From contig CAJWZC010000018.1 in NCBI GenBank assembly GCA_913049915.1, positions 1 through 49,205 of the forward strand: 49,205 bases of DNA, in the 5' to 3' direction. Below the pieces are notes generated by a model. It was not told the origin of the DNA. It did no database searches and saw only the letters and a program-made list of their open reading frames with translations. This DNA comes from an uncultured Colwellia sp. Lineage in GTDB: Bacteria > Pseudomonadota > Gammaproteobacteria > Enterobacterales > Alteromonadaceae. Position numbers and translations under genes: made by a program. Every line of letters starts with the position of its first letter. Within the stretch, counting starts at the first letter, position 1. Of the stretch, positions 1 to 37,414 are shown piece by piece.

Positions 1-2334
1 TTAGAAGATCCGGTTGAAAAAACTCAACGCCTTAAGCTTAAGTATAACAATCAAATCATAAAGCCTATTGATCTGTATCGGGATGAAGGAAAAGGTCGTG
101 ATAATTCTAAAGGTTTAGATTTAACAGATATTAATGAACTTACACCATTAAAAGTATCTTTAGATACTTGGTTTGTTGACCATTTATTAAATAAAAATGA
201 TGTGCCTGTAGGGGCGAATGCCGTAATGAATCCGGCAAATCGTAGTGAAATTATTGGTTTCCATCAGTATGCAAGTAAAGATGATATGTTGGCGATGATT
301 GATAATGCTGAAGCGGCTTTTGATATTTGGTCAAAAACACCAGTTGCTGAACGTGCAGCGTTGCTTTGTCGTATAGCTGATATTTTAGAACGTCATATGG
401 ATGAGCTCATTGCGCTCTGTATCAAAGAAGCGGGTAAAGTCGCTCAAGATGGTATCGATGAAGTCCGCGAAGCGGTAGATTTTTGTCGTTACTATGCTGC
501 TCGTGCCCTCGAATTAAGTGAAGATGACAGACTTGAAGCACGTGGTGTGGTGTTATGTATCAGCCCATGGAACTTTCCGCTAGCTATATTCTTAGGACAA
601 GTTGCCGCTGCAATTGCTACAGGTAATACGGTATTAGCCAAACCAGCAGAGCAAACAGGCTTAATTGCGCTTCGTGCTATTGAGTTGATGAAATCAGTTG
701 GCTTACCTAAAAACGTAGTGCAAGCGGTTATTGCACGCGGTAGTGCAGTAGGTAGTACTATTATTCCTGATAGCCGTATTCAAACGGTAATGTTTACTGG
801 CTCTACAGAAACAGGTACACATATTTCACAAACCCTAGCTGAGCGTGGTGGCGATCAAGTGCCATTCATTGCGGAAACGGGTGGTCAAAACTGTATGATT
901 GTTGACTCAACTGCGTTACCGGAGCAAGTCGTTGATGATGTTATCTCGTCGGGCTTCCAAAGTGCAGGTCAGCGCTGTTCTGCTCTGCGCGTACTATTTT
1001 TACAAGAGGATATAGCGGATAATGTTATTACTATGCTTCAAGGTGCATTGGCTGAGTTACATGTTGGTAATCCTGCTAAATTAAGTACCGATGTTGGTCC
1101 TGTTATCGACCAAAAGGCACTTGATGCATTAAATGCTCATAGCGACTATATGCAATCACACGGAAAATTATTATATCAATGTAAATTTTCTGACGATGTT
1201 GTCGATGAAAATGGTCATTTTTTCTTTGCGCCACGTTTGTATGAAATTGATGATATTAGCGTATTACAAAGAGAAGTTTTTGGTCCTTGTGTACATATTG
1301 TTCGCTTTAAAGGTAATGAAATAGAAAGTGTTGTTGATAAAATTAATGGTACTGGTTTTGGTTTAACTATGGGTATTCATACTCGTATAGAACATAGAGC
1401 TTATGATTTAGCAAGATTGTCACGAGCGGGTAATATTTACATTAACCGTAATATGATTGGCGCTATTGTTGGTGTTCAGCCATTTGGTGGTCGTGGTCTT
1501 TCAGGTACAGGGCCTAAAGCAGGAGGTCCAAACTACTTAACACGTTTAGTGAAAGAAAAATCAACGCCCGATGAAGATAAGTTTAACTCTACAGTAGAAA
1601 AAGTAGCCACATTAAGTGGTAATGCCGCCGATAAGCACGAAGCAACACGCATGATGGATAAAGCAAGTTGGGTAGAAAAAGACTGGCGTTTAACTGAGTT
1701 AAACACCCGTATTTCTTGTGTTCGTCAGTTGCTTGCTAAAATAGCTCATGTTGGTATTGTTGAAGATTTAGCGGACGATTTAAACCGTACTTTAGCTGCG
1801 GCACGTTCACAGCTTATCGATATTGAAAAGCGTTTGAAAAAACCACAACAATTACCAGGGCCAACGGGTGAGTCAAATATCATTTATTTAGAAAATCGGG
1901 GTAATATTATCTGTTACGCGGATGAAAGTGTAAGTTTTGATTTCTGGGTTCTCTCTATTGTGACAGCACTTGCTACCGGTAATACCGTTATTGCTGTAGT
2001 GTCAGACTTGTTCTATCACGAGGCATTAGTGTTTAAAGAAAAATTTGTTGCTACCGGTGCAGATAAAGATGTCTTTCAAGTCGCTAAGTTATGTCATTTA
2101 GAAACAATGCTAGCTCACTCTGCTTTATCAGGTGTTGTCGTTGATAGTAGTTCTGACAGTAAGCATTATGTTAGTGATCAACTAGCACAACGTCACGGTG
2201 CTATTTTACCTGTAATCAGTTCTGAATATTTTGATAACTTGATTCAACGTTTGGTGACAGAAAAAACAGTGAGTATCGACACTACTGCTTCAGGCGGTAA
2301 TACTTCACTGATGACACTGGTAGAAGAAGACTAA
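1..2334 (+). CDS. putA: Bifunctional proline dehydrogenase / P5C dehydrogenase PutA, 3' part
   Basis: The reading frame is open from base 1, so the N-terminal part (proline dehydrogenase and any DNA-binding domain) lies outside the window. What is visible is the aldehyde dehydrogenase domain that oxidises glutamate semialdehyde to glutamate with NAD+. It has the SPWNFP motif near codon 186, the conserved Glu at bases 874-876 and the catalytic Cys at 976-978 in a GQRC context. A second ALDH-like C-terminal region follows, ending in a GGNTSLM motif, as in long PutA proteins. Only the missing N-terminus would tell a bifunctional from a trifunctional (autorepressing) PutA. A strong terminator and an Lrp-type regulator gene follow. 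Confidence 0.95.
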   Translation, partial: LEDPVEKTQRLKLKYNNQIIKPIDLYRDEGKGRDNSKGLDLTDINELTPLKVSLDTWFVDHLLNKNDVPVGANAVMNPANRSEIIGFHQYASKDDMLAMIDNAEAAFDIWSKTPVAERAALLCRIADILERHMDELIALCIKEAGKVAQDGIDEVREAVDFCRYYAARALELSEDDRLEARGVVLCISPWNFPLAIFLGQVAAAIATGNTVLAKPAEQTGLIALRAIELMKSVGLPKNVVQAVIARGSAVGSTIIPDSRIQTVMFTGSTETGTHISQTLAERGGDQVPFIAETGGQNCMIVDSTALPEQVVDDVISSGFQSAGQRCSALRVLFLQEDIADNVITMLQGALAELHVGNPAKLSTDVGPVIDQKALDALNAHSDYMQSHGKLLYQCKFSDDVVDENGHFFFAPRLYEIDDISVLQREVFGPCVHIVRFKGNEIESVVDKINGTGFGLTMGIHTRIEHRAYDLARLSRAGNIYINRNMIGAIVGVQPFGGRGLSGTGPKAGGPNYLTRLVKEKSTPDEDKFNSTVEKVATLSGNAADKHEATRMMDKASWVEKDWRLTELNTRISCVRQLLAKIAHVGIVEDLADDLNRTLAAARSQLIDIEKRLKKPQQLPGPTGESNIIYLENRGNIICYADESVSFDFWVLSIVTALATGNTVIAVVSDLFYHEALVFKEKFVATGADKDVFQVAKLCHLETMLAHSALSGVVVDSSSDSKHYVSDQLAQRHGAILPVISSEYFDNLIQRLVTEKTVSIDTTASGGNTSLMTLVEED

Positions 2335-2380
2335 TTAGTTGAATAAGCGGTTTAGCGCTTAACGACACAGCTAATTAAAT

Positions 2381-2430
2381 AAAAACGCGAATGCATACCT
2401 TAAGGTAGCATTCGCGTTTTTTATTTTTTT
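2381..2430 (+). terminator. Intrinsic terminator of putA
   Basis: Long hairpin: AAAACGCGAATGC is followed by the palindrome TACCTTAAGGTA (2396-2407) and then GCATTCGCG and a run of T. One unpaired A at 2395. It separates putA from the regulator gene downstream. Confidence 0.9.
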
Positions 2431-2491
2431 ACTTTTTTTACTGCGTTTACTATGGCAATATCCAATATCTTCCCTACTAAGTATTGTATTT

Positions 2492-2968
2492 ATGGGTAAT
2501 AACAAAATAAAACCTTTGGATCGTATTGATCTAATGATTCTTTCTACCTTACAAACAGATGGTAGAATTTCTAATGTTGATCTGGCGCAGAAAGTAAGCT
2601 TAAGTGCTAGTCCTTGTTTAGACAGGGTAAAGCGTTTAGAAAATGAAGGCTATATTGAGCGTTATGGTGCTTTTTTAAATGCCAGAAAGCTTAATTATGG
2701 TATGAGTGCTTTTGTGCAAGTAAATTTAAATACAACGACCTCCGATGCTTTTAAACGATTTAATAAAGAAGTAGTTACTATAAAGGAAGTGTCTGAATGT
2801 CATTTAGTAGCAGGGGGTTATGATTACCTGCTCAAAATTCGCTTTGCTGATATTGAAAACTATCGATTAGTGTTAGAAAAAATTGGTGGATTGACTGATA
2901 TCGCGCAAACAACAACTTACATAGTAACTGAGCATATAAAGCAAGATGGTGGTGTACCGTTCAATTAA
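2492..2968 (+). CDS. Lrp/AsnC family transcriptional regulator (PutR-like)
   Basis: A 158-residue protein of normal Lrp/AsnC length. The N-terminal winged helix-turn-helix (about residues 10-60) starts with the family's LDRIDLMIL motif, and the C-terminal RAM ligand-binding domain spans about 70-150. Such regulators sense amino acids and form octamers. Its place directly after putA suggests control of proline catabolism, as with PutR-type Lrp members, but that role is inferred from position only. It has its own transcription unit after the putA terminator. The ribosome binding site before the ATG is weak. Confidence 0.9.
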   Translation: MGNNKIKPLDRIDLMILSTLQTDGRISNVDLAQKVSLSASPCLDRVKRLENEGYIERYGAFLNARKLNYGMSAFVQVNLNTTTSDAFKRFNKEVVTIKEVSECHLVAGGYDYLLKIRFADIENYRLVLEKIGGLTDIAQTTTYIVTEHIKQDGGVPFN

Positions 2969-3137
2969 TATTATTTTAGTAAAGCCACTTGGATAACTTT
3001 TTTAGTGACGAATAGTTTTATTAAATTTAAATAGTATTGTTAAGCTGATAAGGTTTTGCTATATATTTAAATGATTTACCTTTAATAAGCTGACTTTAGG
3101 AAGCTTATTTCTAAAACTGCTAATTTTGAGGTTAACT

Positions 3138-4959: not shown

Positions 4960-5221
4960 GGACAGATGAACCTATAAACTTAGTTAAATATAGTTTTACT
5001 TTATAAAGCGGAAAACGTGAAGATAGGAAAACTTAAAGCAGTATGATTTATTTTCATTCCCACGCGAGAGTATACACAATTTAACTTTACAATTTTAAAA
5101 AAAGACTATTTTTTTGGTAATAGAAAAGCTTAGCTAAAAGAAGACAAAGCCAGTAAAGCTTGTTAGCATCGAGACATAAAGTTTATCACGTTATCAAAAT
5201 AATTATAAAAAAAGGGTAAGT

Positions 5222-31053: not shown

Positions 31054-32853
31054 ATGAAAAATATAATCACTTACCTAGTGTTTTTACTGATTAATATCGT
31101 CCAGATAAATTATAGTTATGCCAATAACTTAGTAGATAATAGTATTAATTCTGACCAACAATTAGCCAGTATTATCAAAGTTCATGAGCAATTTTATCTC
31201 AAATCAAGTCCTTTCAATCAGCCTAATATTGATAGTAATAACGCTAAGTTACCAGATTTTTCGGCTAATTCTCTACTCGTTAAGTACCAGCAAGGTTTGG
31301 TTATTTATCAGCAGTTAATCGCAATAGATATTGAAAAGTTAACACAAGAGAATCAGATTAACTTATCGGTACTTAGTTACAGCTTAAAAAATCAGTTAGA
31401 TAGTTATACCAATAAAGAACACTACATGCCACTCACTGCAGAGTCAGGCTTTCATGTTTGGATAGCAAATATTTCAAAGCAAGTCGATTTTAAAACCTAT
31501 ACAGATTATCAAGATTACCTAGCACGTCTATCAGCTCTTCCTCGATATTTTGACCAACAAACTCATTGGATGAAGTTAGGACTTGCCAGTGGTATTAGTC
31601 AGCCGAAAATAGTGCTTGAGGGATTTGAAAAATCTATTACTGCATATATAAAAGAGAATGTTACAGAAAGTTCTTATTATTTACCGTTTAGAAAAATGTC
31701 AGCTTTTATTACGCCGACTGAGAAAGGTGAGTTACAGCGACAAGCTAAGCATATTTTAACTACTAAAGTTATGCCCGCATATCATAGCTATTATGACTTT
31801 ATGGTGAATGAATATAAGCCAAATGCTCGTGATAATATTGCCGCTAGTTCTCTTCCTAATGGTAAAAGATACTATCAAAATAGGCTAAGACATTATACCA
31901 CGTTACCCTTAACGGCAATACAAGTTCACCAACAGGGATACACTGAAGTAAAGCGTATACGAGCCGAAATGGACAAAATTATTAAGCAAGTAAGTTTTGA
32001 TGGTAGCTTCAGTGATTTTGTACAATTTTTACGTACCGATCCTCAATTTTATGCTTCTACACCCACAGAACTATTAAAAGAAGCATCCTTTATTGCTAAA
32101 AAGATGGACGCCAAATTACCTACTCTATTTAAGACGTTACCCAGAACACCCTATGGTGTAATGGCTGTACCTGCTAATATAGCGCGTAAATATACAACGG
32201 GACGATATGCAGGTTCATCACGAGATGACCAACCAGGAAATTATTGGGTCAATACTTATAGATTAGATCGTCGACCACTTTATGTCTTAACGGCCCTGAC
32301 ACTTCATGAAGCTGTACCTGGCCATCACTTACAAATATCGTTAGCCAAAGAGATGAAGGATGTAGCAAAGTTTAGAAATAGAACCTACATATCTGCTTTT
32401 GGTGAAGGTTGGGGCTTGTATTCTGAATATCTAGGAATAGAGGCAGGTATGTATGAGGACCCTTACCATGACTTTGGTCGTTTGACCTATGAAATGTGGC
32501 GAGCTTGTCGCTTAGTTGTCGATACAGGAATACATACCCAAGGGTGGAGTCGTGCTAAAGCAATAGATTTTTTAGCGAGTAACACCGCATTGTCACTTCA
32601 TAATGTAAAAACGGAAATAGATCGTTATATCTCATGGCCGGGACAAGCTTTATCTTACAAAGTAGGTGAGTTAACGATTAAGCGTTTACGAAAAGAGGCG
32701 GAAAAAACTTTAGGTGGGGACTTTGATTTACGAGACTTTCATGATGAATTGTTGAAACGCGGCTCAATGCCATTATCTATGTTAGATAGAATAATAATGC
32801 ATTATATTAGTAAGAAGAAAACTCTTCATAATAAATTGAAACAAGCGCTGTAA
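31054..32853 (+). CDS. DUF885 family exported protein, putative metallopeptidase
   Basis: A 599-residue DUF885 protein with a signal peptide (cleavage after SYA, residue 23). The HEAVPGHHLQ motif near residue 421 and EGWGLYSEYLG about 30 residues later look like a zinc-peptidase site of the gluzincin kind. The C-terminal half (GQALSYKVGELTI) is typical for the family. Periplasmic or outer-membrane-facing, substrate unknown. The Shine-Dalgarno sequence is weak. The gene is followed by the riboswitch RNA on the opposite strand. Confidence 0.85.
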   Translation: MKNIITYLVFLLINIVQINYSYANNLVDNSINSDQQLASIIKVHEQFYLKSSPFNQPNIDSNNAKLPDFSANSLLVKYQQGLVIYQQLIAIDIEKLTQENQINLSVLSYSLKNQLDSYTNKEHYMPLTAESGFHVWIANISKQVDFKTYTDYQDYLARLSALPRYFDQQTHWMKLGLASGISQPKIVLEGFEKSITAYIKENVTESSYYLPFRKMSAFITPTEKGELQRQAKHILTTKVMPAYHSYYDFMVNEYKPNARDNIAASSLPNGKRYYQNRLRHYTTLPLTAIQVHQQGYTEVKRIRAEMDKIIKQVSFDGSFSDFVQFLRTDPQFYASTPTELLKEASFIAKKMDAKLPTLFKTLPRTPYGVMAVPANIARKYTTGRYAGSSRDDQPGNYWVNTYRLDRRPLYVLTALTLHEAVPGHHLQISLAKEMKDVAKFRNRTYISAFGEGWGLYSEYLGIEAGMYEDPYHDFGRLTYEMWRACRLVVDTGIHTQGWSRAKAIDFLASNTALSLHNVKTEIDRYISWPGQALSYKVGELTIKRLRKEAEKTLGGDFDLRDFHDELLKRGSMPLSMLDRIIMHYISKKKTLHNKLKQAL

Positions 32854-32949
32854 CTTATTTTAGAAAGTGTCGGGTACATAAATACTGTTTTAGACGTTAG
32901 TGATATAAATAATGATGAGTGCTTTTAAGAAGTAAGTAAATCAGTAAAT

Positions 32950-33030
32950 AAAAAAGGGAGGGGCGACGCAAAGAAAACGGAAGAAACAGATAGTGAATTA
33001 TCGAATTAAGATAAGCCCCCACTATATCTA
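32950..33030 (-). terminator. Expression platform/terminator-like 3' end of the riboswitch RNA
   Basis: On the minus strand, after the aptamer come GGGGGC (33015-33020), a nested hairpin built on ATAGTG/CACTAT and TTATC/GATAA, then CTTTGCGTC (32965-32973), GCCCCTCCC and six T (32950-32955). GCCCC can pair with GGGGGC to end the RNA at the T run. CTTTGCGTC is a perfect complement of GACGCAAAG inside the aptamer, as expected of a switching helix. Confidence 0.65.
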
Positions 33031-33116
33031 AACTTGGCAGTCCCGCTATCATAGGTTTCCCTTTAGACCGGTAACTTTGCGTCTCTAATTTTCACTAGAT
33101 TTGCCCTTAGCAAGCT
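33031..33116 (-). ncRNA. c-di-GMP-I (GEMM-I) riboswitch aptamer, no gene downstream
   Basis: Minus-strand sequence fits the GEMM-I consensus (Vibrio Vc2 type). Closing stem AGCTTG (33111-33116) / CAAGTT (33031-33036); AGGGCAAA; a perfect 6-bp stem TCTAGT/ATTAGA around a GAAA tetraloop (33084-33099); GACGCAAAG (33075-33083); ACCGGTCTAAA; and ATAGCGGGACTGCC near the 3' end. These RNAs bind cyclic di-GMP in a three-way junction. Transcription from the promoter at 33136-33163 would give about 180 bases. No open reading frame follows on this strand; the RNA runs into the 3' end of the opposite-strand DUF885 gene. Confidence 0.85.
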
Positions 33117-33135
33117 ATAAAGCTTAGCTAACAAT

Positions 33136-33163
33136 ATTATAGGATGAATTTGATAAATGTAAA
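33136..33163 (-). promoter_or_regulatory. Promoter of the riboswitch RNA
   Basis: Minus-strand -35 TTTACA (33158-33163), 16-base spacer, perfect -10 TATAAT (33136-33141). Predicted start near 33129, about 13 bases before the aptamer. Confidence 0.75.
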
Positions 33164-33256
33164 CAAAAAATACTATTTTTTGTTTATCTTTTGGAAGGTC
33201 AATACAGTAATGAGTAATGTTCAATTGTATTTTATTCAATAACTAACGGTATTAAT

Positions 33257-35167
33257 ATGATGAAAAAACGGTTGTTTCAGTTGATAAAATTTACTTTTAA
33301 AGTGTATTTATTGTCTCTTCTTGTAGTGAGTACCTCTATGGCACAGTTATCCTCTGAGCAAGCCGTACTTAGTAATCAAGTAGAAGAATTATTAAAAGTA
33401 AATGATGAAATAGTTGATATTGAGACGGTTAAATCTCTGTTAGAAAAAATACTGAATAATAGGGAATATTACTCAAATGATATTCTCGCCAAAGTTTATT
33501 TACTCTCTGCAAGGGGTGCTAGTAATCAAGGAGATATCAATAACGTTTTAGAATTTTCTCAAAAAGGTTTAACAGCTAATAGTTTAGATAAAAAAATTCA
33601 ATTAGCATTATTACTGAAATTAGCCGATGTATATGTTGCCAGAAAGCAACATCAGAAATTGCTTGAACTGACTCAAATAGCGGTAAAAAATAGTGAGCTG
33701 TCAGGTAGTATTAAATATCAATTACTTTCGCTGAGTTATCGCAGCGTCGCTTTTGCAATGTTAGGAATGCACCAACGGGCTTTAGCTGATTTACAGAAAG
33801 TTGAGCAGGGTATCAGCAAAAGTGAATTGACAGAGCATATTGATTTATTAACGACTTTAGCTTTGGCTTATCATCATTTAGGTGATTTTCAAACATCAAG
33901 AATAATGCAATTAAATATATTAAAATTAAGTGTTGAGATGGGACGAAAAAGAAATGTTGCTCAAACTTATTTATACTTAGGATGTGCTTATTTTTACTTG
34001 CAACGTTTTGATGATGCATATAATGCCTTTTGGGAGTCTAAAAAATATGCTGAAAATAAAGGGGCTTCTATTCATGTTGCTTACGCAGATAAATGGTTAG
34101 GTATAGTTCTAATAGCACAAGATCAATTTCATGAAGCAATTGTGCCATTACAGCAAGCAATTGATATATATAAGCAACATAATATGCTTGCTGATCGTAT
34201 AGAAAGTTCTGTGGCTTTAGTAAAAGCGAAGCTAGGTATTAAAAAAATAACTGAAGGTTATACTTTATTGACAGGAATAGTACAGCTTCTTGATGGTAAG
34301 GATATTTCATTAGATTTTTCAGGGTTTTATCGAATGGTTGCTGAAATGCACTTCGCGCAAAATAATTATCAATTAGCGTATCGTTGGCGCGAAAAATATA
34401 GTCAAGTATTACTTGATAAGATCAATCATAAGAAAAAAGCTTCCCTTATAGCACCAAGCCTCTCTCAGCTATTTTTAAGTCAGGTAACCCAAATTGAACC
34501 CATTGAAGAATCAAAAAGGTTAATAGTTAAATTGGCGGAAACCAGTGAGTTATCAGTTAGCTTTGTTGGAAAGTATAAAAAACAACGAGTCATCATCATA
34601 AGTTTGTCGGTATTAGTCTTTGTCTTACTACTCACCTTAGTGGGCTTCTTTTTGAGACTAAGAGCACAGAAAATGAAGCTGGCCTATGAGGAAATTGAAA
34701 AGCCAACTTATGTTATAGCTACGCCCATTCAAACAAAGTGTAATTATCAATTAGTCTTTCACAAGGCAAGGAAATTTAACTACCCTCTCAATGTCGGTTA
34801 TCTTATTATAGATAATCTTCAGGAGCTCTCTTTTCACCTCAATAAAAAAAGTATTACTGAGGTGACTAAAGAAATCGCTAGTCTTATTAATGATCACATC
34901 ACTGAATTTGATTATGCGGGCTTGTTAAATGAAGGAGAGTATTTGTTATTATTTGAGCACCAACGTAGTCAAGAAACTAGTATAAAGCTCGATAATCTGG
35001 TGCAAGCTATAAATACCAGAGCCTTTGTCACTCTGGGCGATTTTTCAGTAACGATGAAATACTCGTTAAATACACCTAGTTTTAAAGATATCGATCCATA
35101 TCTATTTTTGGCCCGCATTGCTGAATCTGTTAATATTAAAAAAGTTAACCAGTCTAAGGTAATTTAA
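33257..35167 (+). CDS. TPR membrane protein with degenerate GGDEF domain
   Basis: A 636-residue protein: signal peptide or anchor (about residues 9-29), periplasmic tetratricopeptide-like repeats (about 60-390), one membrane segment (about 448-470) and a cytoplasmic domain of about 150 residues. That domain aligns with GGDEF, but the signature is NEGEY (558-562) and the other substrate residues are missing, so diguanylate cyclase activity is not expected. The layout resembles TPR-GGDEF receptors common in Alteromonadales. The stop overlaps the next start by one base (TAATG), showing translational coupling. Divergent from the c-di-GMP riboswitch RNA. Ribosome binding site weak. Confidence 0.75.
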   Translation: MMKKRLFQLIKFTFKVYLLSLLVVSTSMAQLSSEQAVLSNQVEELLKVNDEIVDIETVKSLLEKILNNREYYSNDILAKVYLLSARGASNQGDINNVLEFSQKGLTANSLDKKIQLALLLKLADVYVARKQHQKLLELTQIAVKNSELSGSIKYQLLSLSYRSVAFAMLGMHQRALADLQKVEQGISKSELTEHIDLLTTLALAYHHLGDFQTSRIMQLNILKLSVEMGRKRNVAQTYLYLGCAYFYLQRFDDAYNAFWESKKYAENKGASIHVAYADKWLGIVLIAQDQFHEAIVPLQQAIDIYKQHNMLADRIESSVALVKAKLGIKKITEGYTLLTGIVQLLDGKDISLDFSGFYRMVAEMHFAQNNYQLAYRWREKYSQVLLDKINHKKKASLIAPSLSQLFLSQVTQIEPIEESKRLIVKLAETSELSVSFVGKYKKQRVIIISLSVLVFVLLLTLVGFFLRLRAQKMKLAYEEIEKPTYVIATPIQTKCNYQLVFHKARKFNYPLNVGYLIIDNLQELSFHLNKKSITEVTKEIASLINDHITEFDYAGLLNEGEYLLLFEHQRSQETSIKLDNLVQAINTRAFVTLGDFSVTMKYSLNTPSFKDIDPYLFLARIAESVNIKKVNQSKVI

Positions 35168-35709
35168 TGTTTTTTGTTGTAGTTGTAACAGTTGTTTTTG
35201 TCATCATCAGTATCTACTTCTTTTTTCGTGCAGAAAATCTGCAAAGACAACTAATAAGTCAGCAACGTGAAAGTTTGCTTACCCTGAAGGAAAATAAATT
35301 ATTAGTGGAGTCTATTACACTTGTCGCCACGCGAGAACAGGAGTTCTCTAAAGCAAAATTACAACGTTTAAAAGTGTATGCTAAAGAAAGCTTTAACGAG
35401 AAAATTGCATTACACACAGAATTAATCAGTCCATTAATTAACAATTATAGCATCATTTTTAGAGAGTGTTTGAAAGGGAAAGGTAGACTCAAATTGGTTA
35501 GCCAAAAATGTTTTGAAAATCAGGATAGCTCGGCTTATAAAAAATTTGTAGCATTGATTGTAACAAGTGATAAAAAATTAAAACGTTATTGGTCTAGTGA
35601 TAACCTCAATGGGTTTCTTTTTTTAGTTGATGCCCTACTAACTATGGATGATGATAAGAATAACGCTGATCTACCTATTGAAATTAAGAAAAGTAATTGT
35701 AACTCCTAA
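35167..35709 (+). CDS. Small membrane-anchored coiled-coil protein, unknown
   Basis: I do not recognise a family. The 180-residue product has one N-terminal membrane segment (about residues 2-20) and a charged helical region (about 22-90, RAENLQRQL... pattern) likely to be a coiled coil. A cytoplasmic C-terminal part with three Cys follows. Its ATG overlaps the stop of the TPR/GGDEF-like gene, so the two proteins are made together and may form one complex. Confidence 0.7.
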   Translation: MFFVVVVTVVFVIISIYFFFRAENLQRQLISQQRESLLTLKENKLLVESITLVATREQEFSKAKLQRLKVYAKESFNEKIALHTELISPLINNYSIIFRECLKGKGRLKLVSQKCFENQDSSAYKKFVALIVTSDKKLKRYWSSDNLNGFLFLVDALLTMDDDKNNADLPIEIKKSNCNS

Positions 35710-35806
35710 GATAACAGCTTCATAATTTGTTATATCTGTACAAAAGCACGTATTTTTATTAGGCTAGGCTATTACTTTGATTAGATTTCCTAGGATGGGG
35801 ATATAT

Positions 35807-37414
35807 ATGAATCGTTTTAACGCCAAGTACATTTTATTATTTATTATGCTTATTGTTGGTCTATCTACACTGTTTGCCAAACATTATAGTGAAAGTTTTC
35901 CGTTTAGTTTGGCCGCTATTATTGGTTATCTTGTAACGGTTGTTACCACGACTGTAGTTTCTCTGTTATTTATTCAAAAATCACTCAGCCCAACTGCTTT
36001 AAAGACTAATACTGACATTATTAGTGCTGAAGATTTATTTTCTTATACCCATGACCCTGCAACAAATTTACCAACAGCACAGCAAGCTCAAAAAACTTTT
36101 GAAGCTGCTATTAAGTCTGATACTGGACAACGTTATGCTGCCGTAGTTTTTAAGCCAGTTAATTTTCAACAGGTAAATAGTTTACTGGGTCATCATAATT
36201 CTGACTTATTATTATTGCAGCTTGCGTACTGTTTACAACAAAAAATATCGGATAATACAAGTTTATTAAGCTTTGGCTTTAGTCCAGAGCCTGTCCGTAT
36301 TGCCCGTTTGCAAAGCTTACAGTTTTTGGTGATATATAATTTAACGGATAGTCGTTTTGATGATGAGATTATGCTTGATGAGGTATGTCATCAATTAGCT
36401 GATGCTGTGCCTGATGCTATGAGTTTTAAGAGCTTTTCTTTAAATTTTGAACTTGTTTTTGGTATCGCAATTTCGGGTGTACATGGTGATAACTTTGATG
36501 AAATTATCGCCCATGCAGGTGATGCTTTACTTCACGCTTCAAAGACACAACAACAAATTAATTATTTTGATAAAAGTAGTGTTTTATATAACCAAAGTGA
36601 GTTGGCCCGTATAGAGGCGCTACGTCATGATATTAAAGAAGATAAGTTATTCTACTATCTACAACCTCAAGTAAATATTAATAATCACAACGTTATAGGT
36701 TTCCAATTAAGGGTTAATTGGTATGAAAATGAGTTGACGAAACCAGTAGAGTTGTTTGACTTTTCTTATCTTGCTGAACATAGTGGCGAGTTATATTTAT
36801 TGACAAAACAGATGTTGACAGTCGCATTTTTAACTCTTAATAGTTTACATGAAATTGGAGTATATCAACGCATATCTGTAACGTTGTCGAGTGCAAGTTT
36901 GTTTGAAGTAGATCTGGTTGACTTTATCGAACAACAATTACAAAAATATAATATTTCAGGTAAATATTTAATGATTGAACTGAGTGAAAAAGTAATGCTT
37001 AGTGCGAGTAATAGAGTCAAAGTAATTATTGATCAGCTTAAATCATTTGATATAAATATTTCTATCACTAACTTTTCAGGTAGTTATGAATCATTACGTT
37101 ATGTAAGGAAAATGGCAATTCATCAACTTAAAATCAATTGCCAGCAATTAACTAACGATAGTAGTAATCGAGTTGATAAAGCAATAACAAATGCACTTGT
37201 TACGTTGACTCGAAGTATGAAAATCCCACTTATTGGCACGCACATTGATAGGCATGAAGCTTCAGAAGCTTATATAGCCATGGGTGGAAAGCTAATTCAA
37301 GGTGATATTATTCATCCAGGTGTAGTACCTGATGAAATCGAAATATGGTTAGAAAAATGGTACTTACAGCATCCTGAATCAATACCTCCTGAAGCACGAC
37401 CTTCGATATATTAA
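35807..37414 (+). CDS. Membrane protein with degenerate GGDEF and EAL domains
   Basis: A 535-residue protein from ATG 35807, which has GGGG seven bases upstream; the frame opens earlier at TTG 35777. Two membrane segments (about residues 6-24 and 33-57) precede a GGDEF-like domain with RLQSLQF in place of RxGGDEF (about 167-173). The EAL-like domain that follows has QLR for EAL (300-302), ELSEK for the ExTE(N) site and TNFSGS for DDFGTG (421-426). Both active sites are lost, so it is presumably a binding or scaffold protein, in the manner of LapD or CsrD, though not clearly an orthologue of either. It follows the coupled pair by about 100 bases. Confidence 0.8.
   Translation: MNRFNAKYILLFIMLIVGLSTLFAKHYSESFPFSLAAIIGYLVTVVTTTVVSLLFIQKSLSPTALKTNTDIISAEDLFSYTHDPATNLPTAQQAQKTFEAAIKSDTGQRYAAVVFKPVNFQQVNSLLGHHNSDLLLLQLAYCLQQKISDNTSLLSFGFSPEPVRIARLQSLQFLVIYNLTDSRFDDEIMLDEVCHQLADAVPDAMSFKSFSLNFELVFGIAISGVHGDNFDEIIAHAGDALLHASKTQQQINYFDKSSVLYNQSELARIEALRHDIKEDKLFYYLQPQVNINNHNVIGFQLRVNWYENELTKPVELFDFSYLAEHSGELYLLTKQMLTVAFLTLNSLHEIGVYQRISVTLSSASLFEVDLVDFIEQQLQKYNISGKYLMIELSEKVMLSASNRVKVIIDQLKSFDINISITNFSGSYESLRYVRKMAIHQLKINCQQLTNDSSNRVDKAITNALVTLTRSMKIPLIGTHIDRHEASEAYIAMGGKLIQGDIIHPGVVPDEIEIWLEKWYLQHPESIPPEARPSIY

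Follow-up and report, generated by a model that had tools for sequence, protein, structure and literature searches.

A gene-free c-di-GMP-I riboswitch RNA of Colwellia and its relatives, with a conserved tail predicted to pair with the ligand pocket

Riboswitches are generally taken to control the gene behind them. Then, what is the role of a c-di-GMP-I aptamer that has a promoter of its own and no nearby same-strand gene downstream? The question is raised by a locus in the window, by which we mean the whole 49,205-base stretch of Colwellia DNA that was analysed. On the minus strand, positions 33033-33115 match the c-di-GMP-I aptamer family RF01051 over its full length with 76.9 bits (E 1.8e-13; gathering score 35 bits), which confirms the full GEMM-I aptamer that a first-pass annotation had read from the letters. 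Among the matches listed it is the only one at gathering level in the window. The near-perfect promoter of that annotation also held up, with its boxes TTTACA (33163-33158) and TATAAT (33141-33136) separated by 16 nt. The 5' end of the transcript is predicted about 7 nt past the -10 box and the 3' end in a pyrimidine/T tract. The part between the aptamer and the RNA end measures about 80 nt and closes in this tract, which includes six T. The features of the locus and its surroundings are the following.

33136..33163, minus strand: sigma-70 type promoter TTTACA-16-TATAAT, 11 of 12 consensus matches in the window
32950..33129, minus strand: predicted transcript of about 180 nt, both ends predicted from the promoter and the end of the block conserved in relatives
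33112..33125, minus strand: 5' hairpin P0, AAGCT-TTAT-AGCTT (covariation, 77 loci)
33033..33115, minus strand: c-di-GMP-I aptamer (RF01051, 76.9 bits)
33103..33106, minus strand: pocket strand 1, GGGC, which pairs with GCCC of the tail in the predicted closed fold
33075..33082, minus strand: pocket strand 2, ACGCAAAG, which pairs with CTTTGCGT of the tail in the predicted closed fold
33009..33029, minus strand: hairpin P4 with GGGG loop, AGATA-T-AGT-GGGG-GCT-TATCT (helix 5 of the covariation count)
32961..32973, minus strand: anti-aptamer tail CTTTGCGTC-GCCC, 13 predicted pairs with the pocket strands
32950..32960, minus strand: pyrimidine-rich 3' end with six T (from the sequence; the pyrimidine bias is common to relatives, the T run is not)
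31054..32853, plus strand: DUF885 gene, convergent neighbour (Pfam DUF885, 552.9 bits)
33257..35167, plus strand: TPR-repeat protein gene, divergent neighbour (family search)
35777..37414, plus strand: GGDEF-EAL protein gene (family search)

The first-pass annotation was also right that the RNA has no gene of its own in the window, where the next feature downstream is the 3' end of the DUF885 gene on the plus strand. A hidden gene inside or behind the RNA was considered and rejected. The candidate, a 51-aa frame at 32897-33052 that starts within the aptamer, is not conserved; 54 of the 77 loci aligned below have an ATG at its start, and the frames opened by these ATGs run from 7 to 73 codons. 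The same genome holds two more c-di-GMP-I RNAs, both ordinary in look. One directly precedes a 133-aa ORF. The other (L003) stands some 65 nt ahead of an ORF of at least 478 aa (1650-3083), lipoprotein-like and by impression similar to a secreted carbohydrate-active protein.

Is the locus a peculiarity of one genome? Searched with RF01051, 38 of the 39 genomes of the genus yield one c-di-GMP-I RNA or more, and a sequence-only model of the part behind the aptamer, built from 37 sequences, likewise finds that part in 38 of the 39. A single genome (G034) has neither an aptamer nor a tail match. Under stricter filters the tail model matched 82 of 295 genomes in a sample of the family, with one match per genome and 18 of 52 genera represented. 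In a sample of the order, 10 of 394 genomes matched, all 10 from the same family, the 394 including family members in a share not given. The genus and family samples together gave 104 tail-positive genomes, from which 77 loci (38 of the genus and 39 others) were aligned. The RF01051 aptamer lies directly upstream of the tail in all 27 tail-positive genomes outside the alignment, and the 14 other-genus loci scanned with Rfam all carry an aptamer (13 RF01051 and one RF03167, a sister family of the same clan). A search of a named collection with a 20-base pattern returned 64 loci, Colwellia, Cognaticolwellia, Litorilituus and Thalassotalea among them, and in 60 an aptamer core lies at most 130 nt upstream. 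Three of the matches lacking the core, titled Fermentibacteria, Sulfolobales and Paenibacillus, look like chance; the fourth is cut by the locus edge. One genome (G131, genus g14) has nine c-di-GMP-I matches. With 77 orthologous copies that covary, as described below, more than chance is at work. Judged by its sequence, the RNA locus is more than a local accident and shared within the genus and by part of the family, so the free-standing unit with its own promoter, as first annotated, is one that relatives keep.

The alignment shows the same order of parts throughout: promoter, 5' hairpin, aptamer, P4, spacer and TTTGC tail. In 67 of the 77 loci the promoter agrees with the consensus at 11 of 12 positions, scored as the best match within an 87-base stretch, which slightly favours high scores, and its spacing is 16 in 71 of 77. 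The motifs GGC and CGCAAA, which we take to be the ligand-pocket motifs of the c-di-GMP-I aptamer, are intact in every row except L103. P4, with the consensus AGAUA-u-AGU-GGGG-GCU-URUCU, is nearly invariant, and the spacer between P4 and the tail varies from genus to genus. A TTTGC tail stands behind P4 in 77 of 77 loci and GGGGG and TTTGC are missing from no fetched tail-positive locus, an invariance that is partly by construction because the two motifs served as cutting anchors. The changes in P0 over the 77 loci preserve pairing, with G-C, G-U and A-U exchanged at one type of position, C-G and U-A at another, and U-A and A-U at a third.

For the whole open structure, 96.6% of the cells are paired, a figure favoured by drawing the structure from one row (L095), which bears much less on the double changes. 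On both sides 16 of the 31 pairs change, and such double-sided changes occur in all five helices. The covariation of the open structure was reached by 0 of 500 shuffles, with loci counted, here as in all shuffle and swap statistics below, without a correction for kinship; slid versions of the structure gave 33-47%.

The unit also stays constrained where no cyclase gene is seen nearby (the neighbours are described below). Among 20 such loci of the genus the mean pairwise identity is 96% for the aptamer, 98.7% for P4, 85% for the spacer, 83% for the tail and 75% for the 5' hairpin. The controls at the same loci are lower: 27% in the first 80 nt past the tail, 54% ahead of the promoter and, measured in 16 of the 20 loci, 59% for third positions of DUF885 codons. 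In 32 loci of other genera that have the cyclase, identity is 86% in the aptamer, 94% in P4, 40% in the spacer and 57% in the tail, against 24% downstream and 44% at DUF885 third positions. To judge from these identities, the RNA unit is maintained for itself, independently of the neighbouring genes. The one damaged copy, L103 (genome G021, about position 4961), has the pocket strand GGGC changed to ACGC and an altered P3; P4 and most of the tail are kept, and the aptamer still scores 55.8 bits.

What, then, could the conserved part behind the aptamer do? The two strands of the ligand pocket both find a complementary sequence in its tail. In the predicted fold of the window RNA, GGGC and GACGCAAAG pair with CUUUGCGUCGCCC, giving 13 pairs around an intact P2 hairpin. 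Over the 77 loci the pairing probability of core and tail averages 0.96, compared with 0.26 for dinucleotide-shuffled tails; it lies above all 20 shuffles in 61 loci and does not in 16. The tail core hardly varies and the core helix includes five pairs without any variation, so that the pairing of the core rests on complementarity rather than on covariation. For the closed structure as a whole 81.6% of the cells are paired, and for its outer helix 69%, read in a fixed alignment register. Both its 112 double-change cells and its covariation score exceed all 500 shuffles, and its pairs with double changes were equalled in number by 15 of 500; the number of pair types was no better than in shuffles (235 of 500). 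In a swap test, in which one row (L115) had a misplaced tail anchor, the 5' pocket strand preferred its own tail over those of other species (0 of 5000 permutations), and for the core helix alone the own tail was mildly better (186 of 5000).

The fold with the tail is predicted to be more stable than the tail-less RNA by 19.7 kcal/mol on average, in energies that take in neither ligand nor tertiary contacts. The folding model predicts that the tail gives a ligand-free fold in which both pocket strands are buried. With so much stability on the side of the closed form, any switching would have to happen kinetically, in a decision taken during synthesis before the tail exists.

The neighbours of the RNA were surveyed by tblastn in the 77 aligned loci. 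A convergent DUF885 gene lies behind the RNA in 56 of them, split or partial in L040 and L042. In 30 of these 56 a GGDEF diguanylate cyclase (identified in L086 by Pfam GGDEF at 98.4 bits) follows beyond DUF885 on the strand of the RNA, and in the other 26 no cyclase is seen within the fetched stretch, which for L067 ends at the contig. The RNA is kept with no adjacent DUF885 in 21 loci; the same-strand cyclase is the next gene in 18 of these and both genes are missing in three. In genera with the cyclase directly behind the RNA, DUF885 separates the two at other loci.

A quick tree of the TPR-repeat protein covers 65 of the 77 loci, 12 having been dropped where the TPR frame is absent, split or too short, including all seven of genus g52, which is also without the cyclase at the RNA locus. 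On this tree the presence of DUF885 takes nine changes and that of the cyclase two, with the long branches L089 and L101 unsure. The tree itself gives no direction. The fact that DUF885 has the same place and orientation wherever it is present makes repeated loss likelier than repeated insertion, in which case a convergent gene already stood behind the RNA in the ancestor.

Upstream of the cyclase lies a separate conserved element, promoter-like, roughly AGCACTTT...TTACTAGAGAATA and unlike a standard sigma-70 site, noticed for example in L086, L091, L095-L098, L109 and L115. Allowing one mismatch at most, a sequence near CTAGAGAAT marks it in 38 of the 48 loci, against 3% of shuffled regions; 26 of the 30 loci with DUF885 in between have it and 12 of the 18 without, and at that stringency it is absent in 10 of the 48.

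The terminator-like end of the first-pass annotation fared less well than the promoter and the aptamer. The GC tracts (GGGGGC at 33020-33015 and GCCCC at 32964-32960) and the six T (32955-32950) are present, but a strict terminator scan of 32500-33700 found none, and a run of at least six T occurs in only 9 of 77 loci (at least four in 41). A canonical terminator, with a stem and then a T run, is not conserved among the 77. Common to the relatives is a pyrimidine bias, 82% in the 20 nt past the tail core against 55% further downstream. Because the strict scan was empty, the GC tracts are about 50 nt apart and the six-T run is rare, the RNA's own end is the weakest part of the observation.

How do these parts fit together? 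We lean, by a modest degree, towards a stand-alone small RNA in which a c-di-GMP-I aptamer is wired to its own 3' tail and which, gated by c-di-GMP, would act in trans. If little c-di-GMP is around during transcription, the tail would invade the aptamer, and the RNA would fold up into one long duplex that is inactive. At high c-di-GMP, the ligand would already have locked the aptamer by the time the tail emerges, so that the pyrimidine tail and the G-loop would remain accessible. In this open state the RNA could work in trans; the simplest way would be to pair with mRNAs, where ribosome-binding sites rich in purines are candidate partners of the pyrimidine tail, and another would be to hold a protein. 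In such a scheme c-di-GMP would gate a regulatory RNA rather than a downstream gene. The broader claim, that a family-wide RNA turns the c-di-GMP level into an RNA activity on distant mRNAs or a protein without a protein receptor, we hold tentatively, at not quite an even chance. The start regions of nine local gene families (TPR, u180, GGDEF-EAL, DUF885, cyclase, orn, rsgA, DUF523 and TesB) show pairing near chance (mean z -0.43 to +0.90, 13 to 56 loci each), and at the cyclase start region the own tails were not clearly better than swapped ones over 48 loci (355 of 3000 permutations as good).

An action in cis is the chief competitor, and here the tail would be an attenuator. c-di-GMP would decide between a stop at the tail, with the closed hairpin or the GGGGGC/GC-pyrimidine stem as terminator, and read-through, which would make antisense RNA to DUF885, more cyclase mRNA, or both. 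The anti-aptamer tail does resemble an expression platform, the cyclase follows on the same strand at once in 18 loci or beyond DUF885 in 30, and the two other c-di-GMP-I RNAs of the source genome sit right before genes. Yet no cyclase is seen in the 26 loci with DUF885 only and the three with neither gene, the genus members among which stay constrained; the cyclase has its own upstream element; and the stem with a T run is not conserved. We therefore regard attenuation as unlikely, though it deserves to be kept in mind. A store of ligand would need no cis gene. As proposed for the merRNA of Bdellovibrio in passages of PMC3627812, an abundant aptamer would take up c-di-GMP and free it later, with the tail aiding stability or release, and the near-consensus promoter in 67 of 77 loci and the lack of a constant cis gene would suit this. 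Two features, however, would be superfluous in a simple store: the competition of the tail with the ligand, and the GGGG-loop hairpin, which lies beyond the aptamer and hardly varies. We consider a mere store improbable.

Two further readings were rejected as general explanations. The first-pass annotation had also suggested an antisense RNA to the end of the DUF885 mRNA. The convergent gene is indeed next to the RNA in 56 of 77 loci, and c-di-GMP riboswitches are the most over-represented among riboswitches placed antisense in a published survey (PMC9943018). As a general function, however, this suggestion falls with the 21 loci that keep the RNA without DUF885 and is further weakened by the split or partial DUF885 in L040 and L042 and by the 27% identity in the genus over the 80 nt behind the tail, which are not conserved; we give it very little credence. 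A relic of an ordinary riboswitch that lost its gene appears the least probable of all, hardly worth entertaining. In its favour are the 18 loci with the same-strand cyclase right behind, the damaged pocket strand in G021 (with an aptamer that still scores) and the lack of an aptamer or tail match in G034; against it stand the strong constraint over 20 species with no cyclase seen and the presence in 18 genera. Relatives with a normal gene right behind the aptamer, which the annotation would have taken as the sign of a deletion relic, do exist as these 18 loci, but such a relic does not follow from them, since the cyclase has its own element, the same genera have loci with DUF885 in between, and the RNA is constrained where the cyclase is not seen. 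The persistence of the RNA while its neighbours change, together with this constraint, is what makes both the relic and the general antisense device unlikely. A fold conserved in this way points to a regulatory RNA under signal control and away from a leftover.

The RNA shares with the ordinary c-di-GMP-I riboswitch (GEMM-I, RF01051) the same aptamer, at full length and with intact pocket motifs. It differs in lying outside a gene leader and in adding a 5' hairpin, P4 and a tail complementary to the pocket. A cis-regulatory riboswitch has the same-strand gene that it controls directly downstream; the window has none there, and among the 77 loci the RNA is followed first by a same-strand gene in 19, 18 times the cyclase and once another gene (L050). 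Of the marks of a trans-acting small RNA, a promoter of its own and a constraint independent of the neighbours are found in the Colwellia RNA.

The closest precedent, as far as the passages of PMC3627812 describe it, is merRNA of Bdellovibrio bacteriovorus, a gene-free c-di-GMP riboswitch of 445 nt that is massively expressed, is proposed to be a reservoir, and is reported there without conservation beyond the Bdellovibrio lineage. Likened by that description, the Colwellia RNA is gene-free by position and carries a c-di-GMP aptamer too; unlike merRNA, as described in those passages, it has a predicted length of about 180 nt, is spread over 18 genera in the sample of one family and bears a conserved tail complementary to the pocket. 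Riboswitches that reach distant mRNAs or proteins are named as rare in a passage of PMC7266159, which cites Loh 2009, DebRoy 2014 and Mellin 2014 for trans-acting riboswitch RNAs. As in those RNAs, an aptamer is joined to a part that acts elsewhere, in the Colwellia RNA by prediction. Their ligands are reportedly other than c-di-GMP.

Among titles and abstract openings of the open-licence literature we recognised no earlier description of the RNA as a conserved small RNA. A survey of antisense-placed riboswitches found c-di-GMP to be the most enriched family, with 152 cases, and shows a Colwellia example, colw-A3Q33_07785, whose riboswitch class goes unnamed in the part of the text concerned (PMC9943018). 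That riboswitch may be the same as the present RNA. Like the antisense-acting riboswitches in that part of the survey, our RNA lies at the 3' end of a convergent gene; unlike them, RNAs of the Colwellia type are kept without a convergent DUF885 in 21 of 77 loci. Antisense control, which would be the survey's reading as far as that part goes, is disfavoured here because of these loci.

A conserved gene-free c-di-GMP riboswitch with a putative built-in switch, present once per genome in many related marine bacteria, makes the idea of independent, signal-gated riboswitch RNAs directly testable, and some strains carry it without confusing neighbour genes. If the action in trans is true, an RNA effector arm would be added to c-di-GMP signalling.

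Two further observations concern the surroundings. The TPR-repeat protein (33257-35167) and a 180-aa protein (35167-35709), for which no family match was found at E 0.001, stand together beside the RNA in many loci. Around the RNA, the window between 30397 and 37414 is rich in c-di-GMP functions, with an oligoribonuclease-type exonuclease (RNase_T domain) and the GGDEF-EAL protein, to which relatives add the GGDEF cyclase.
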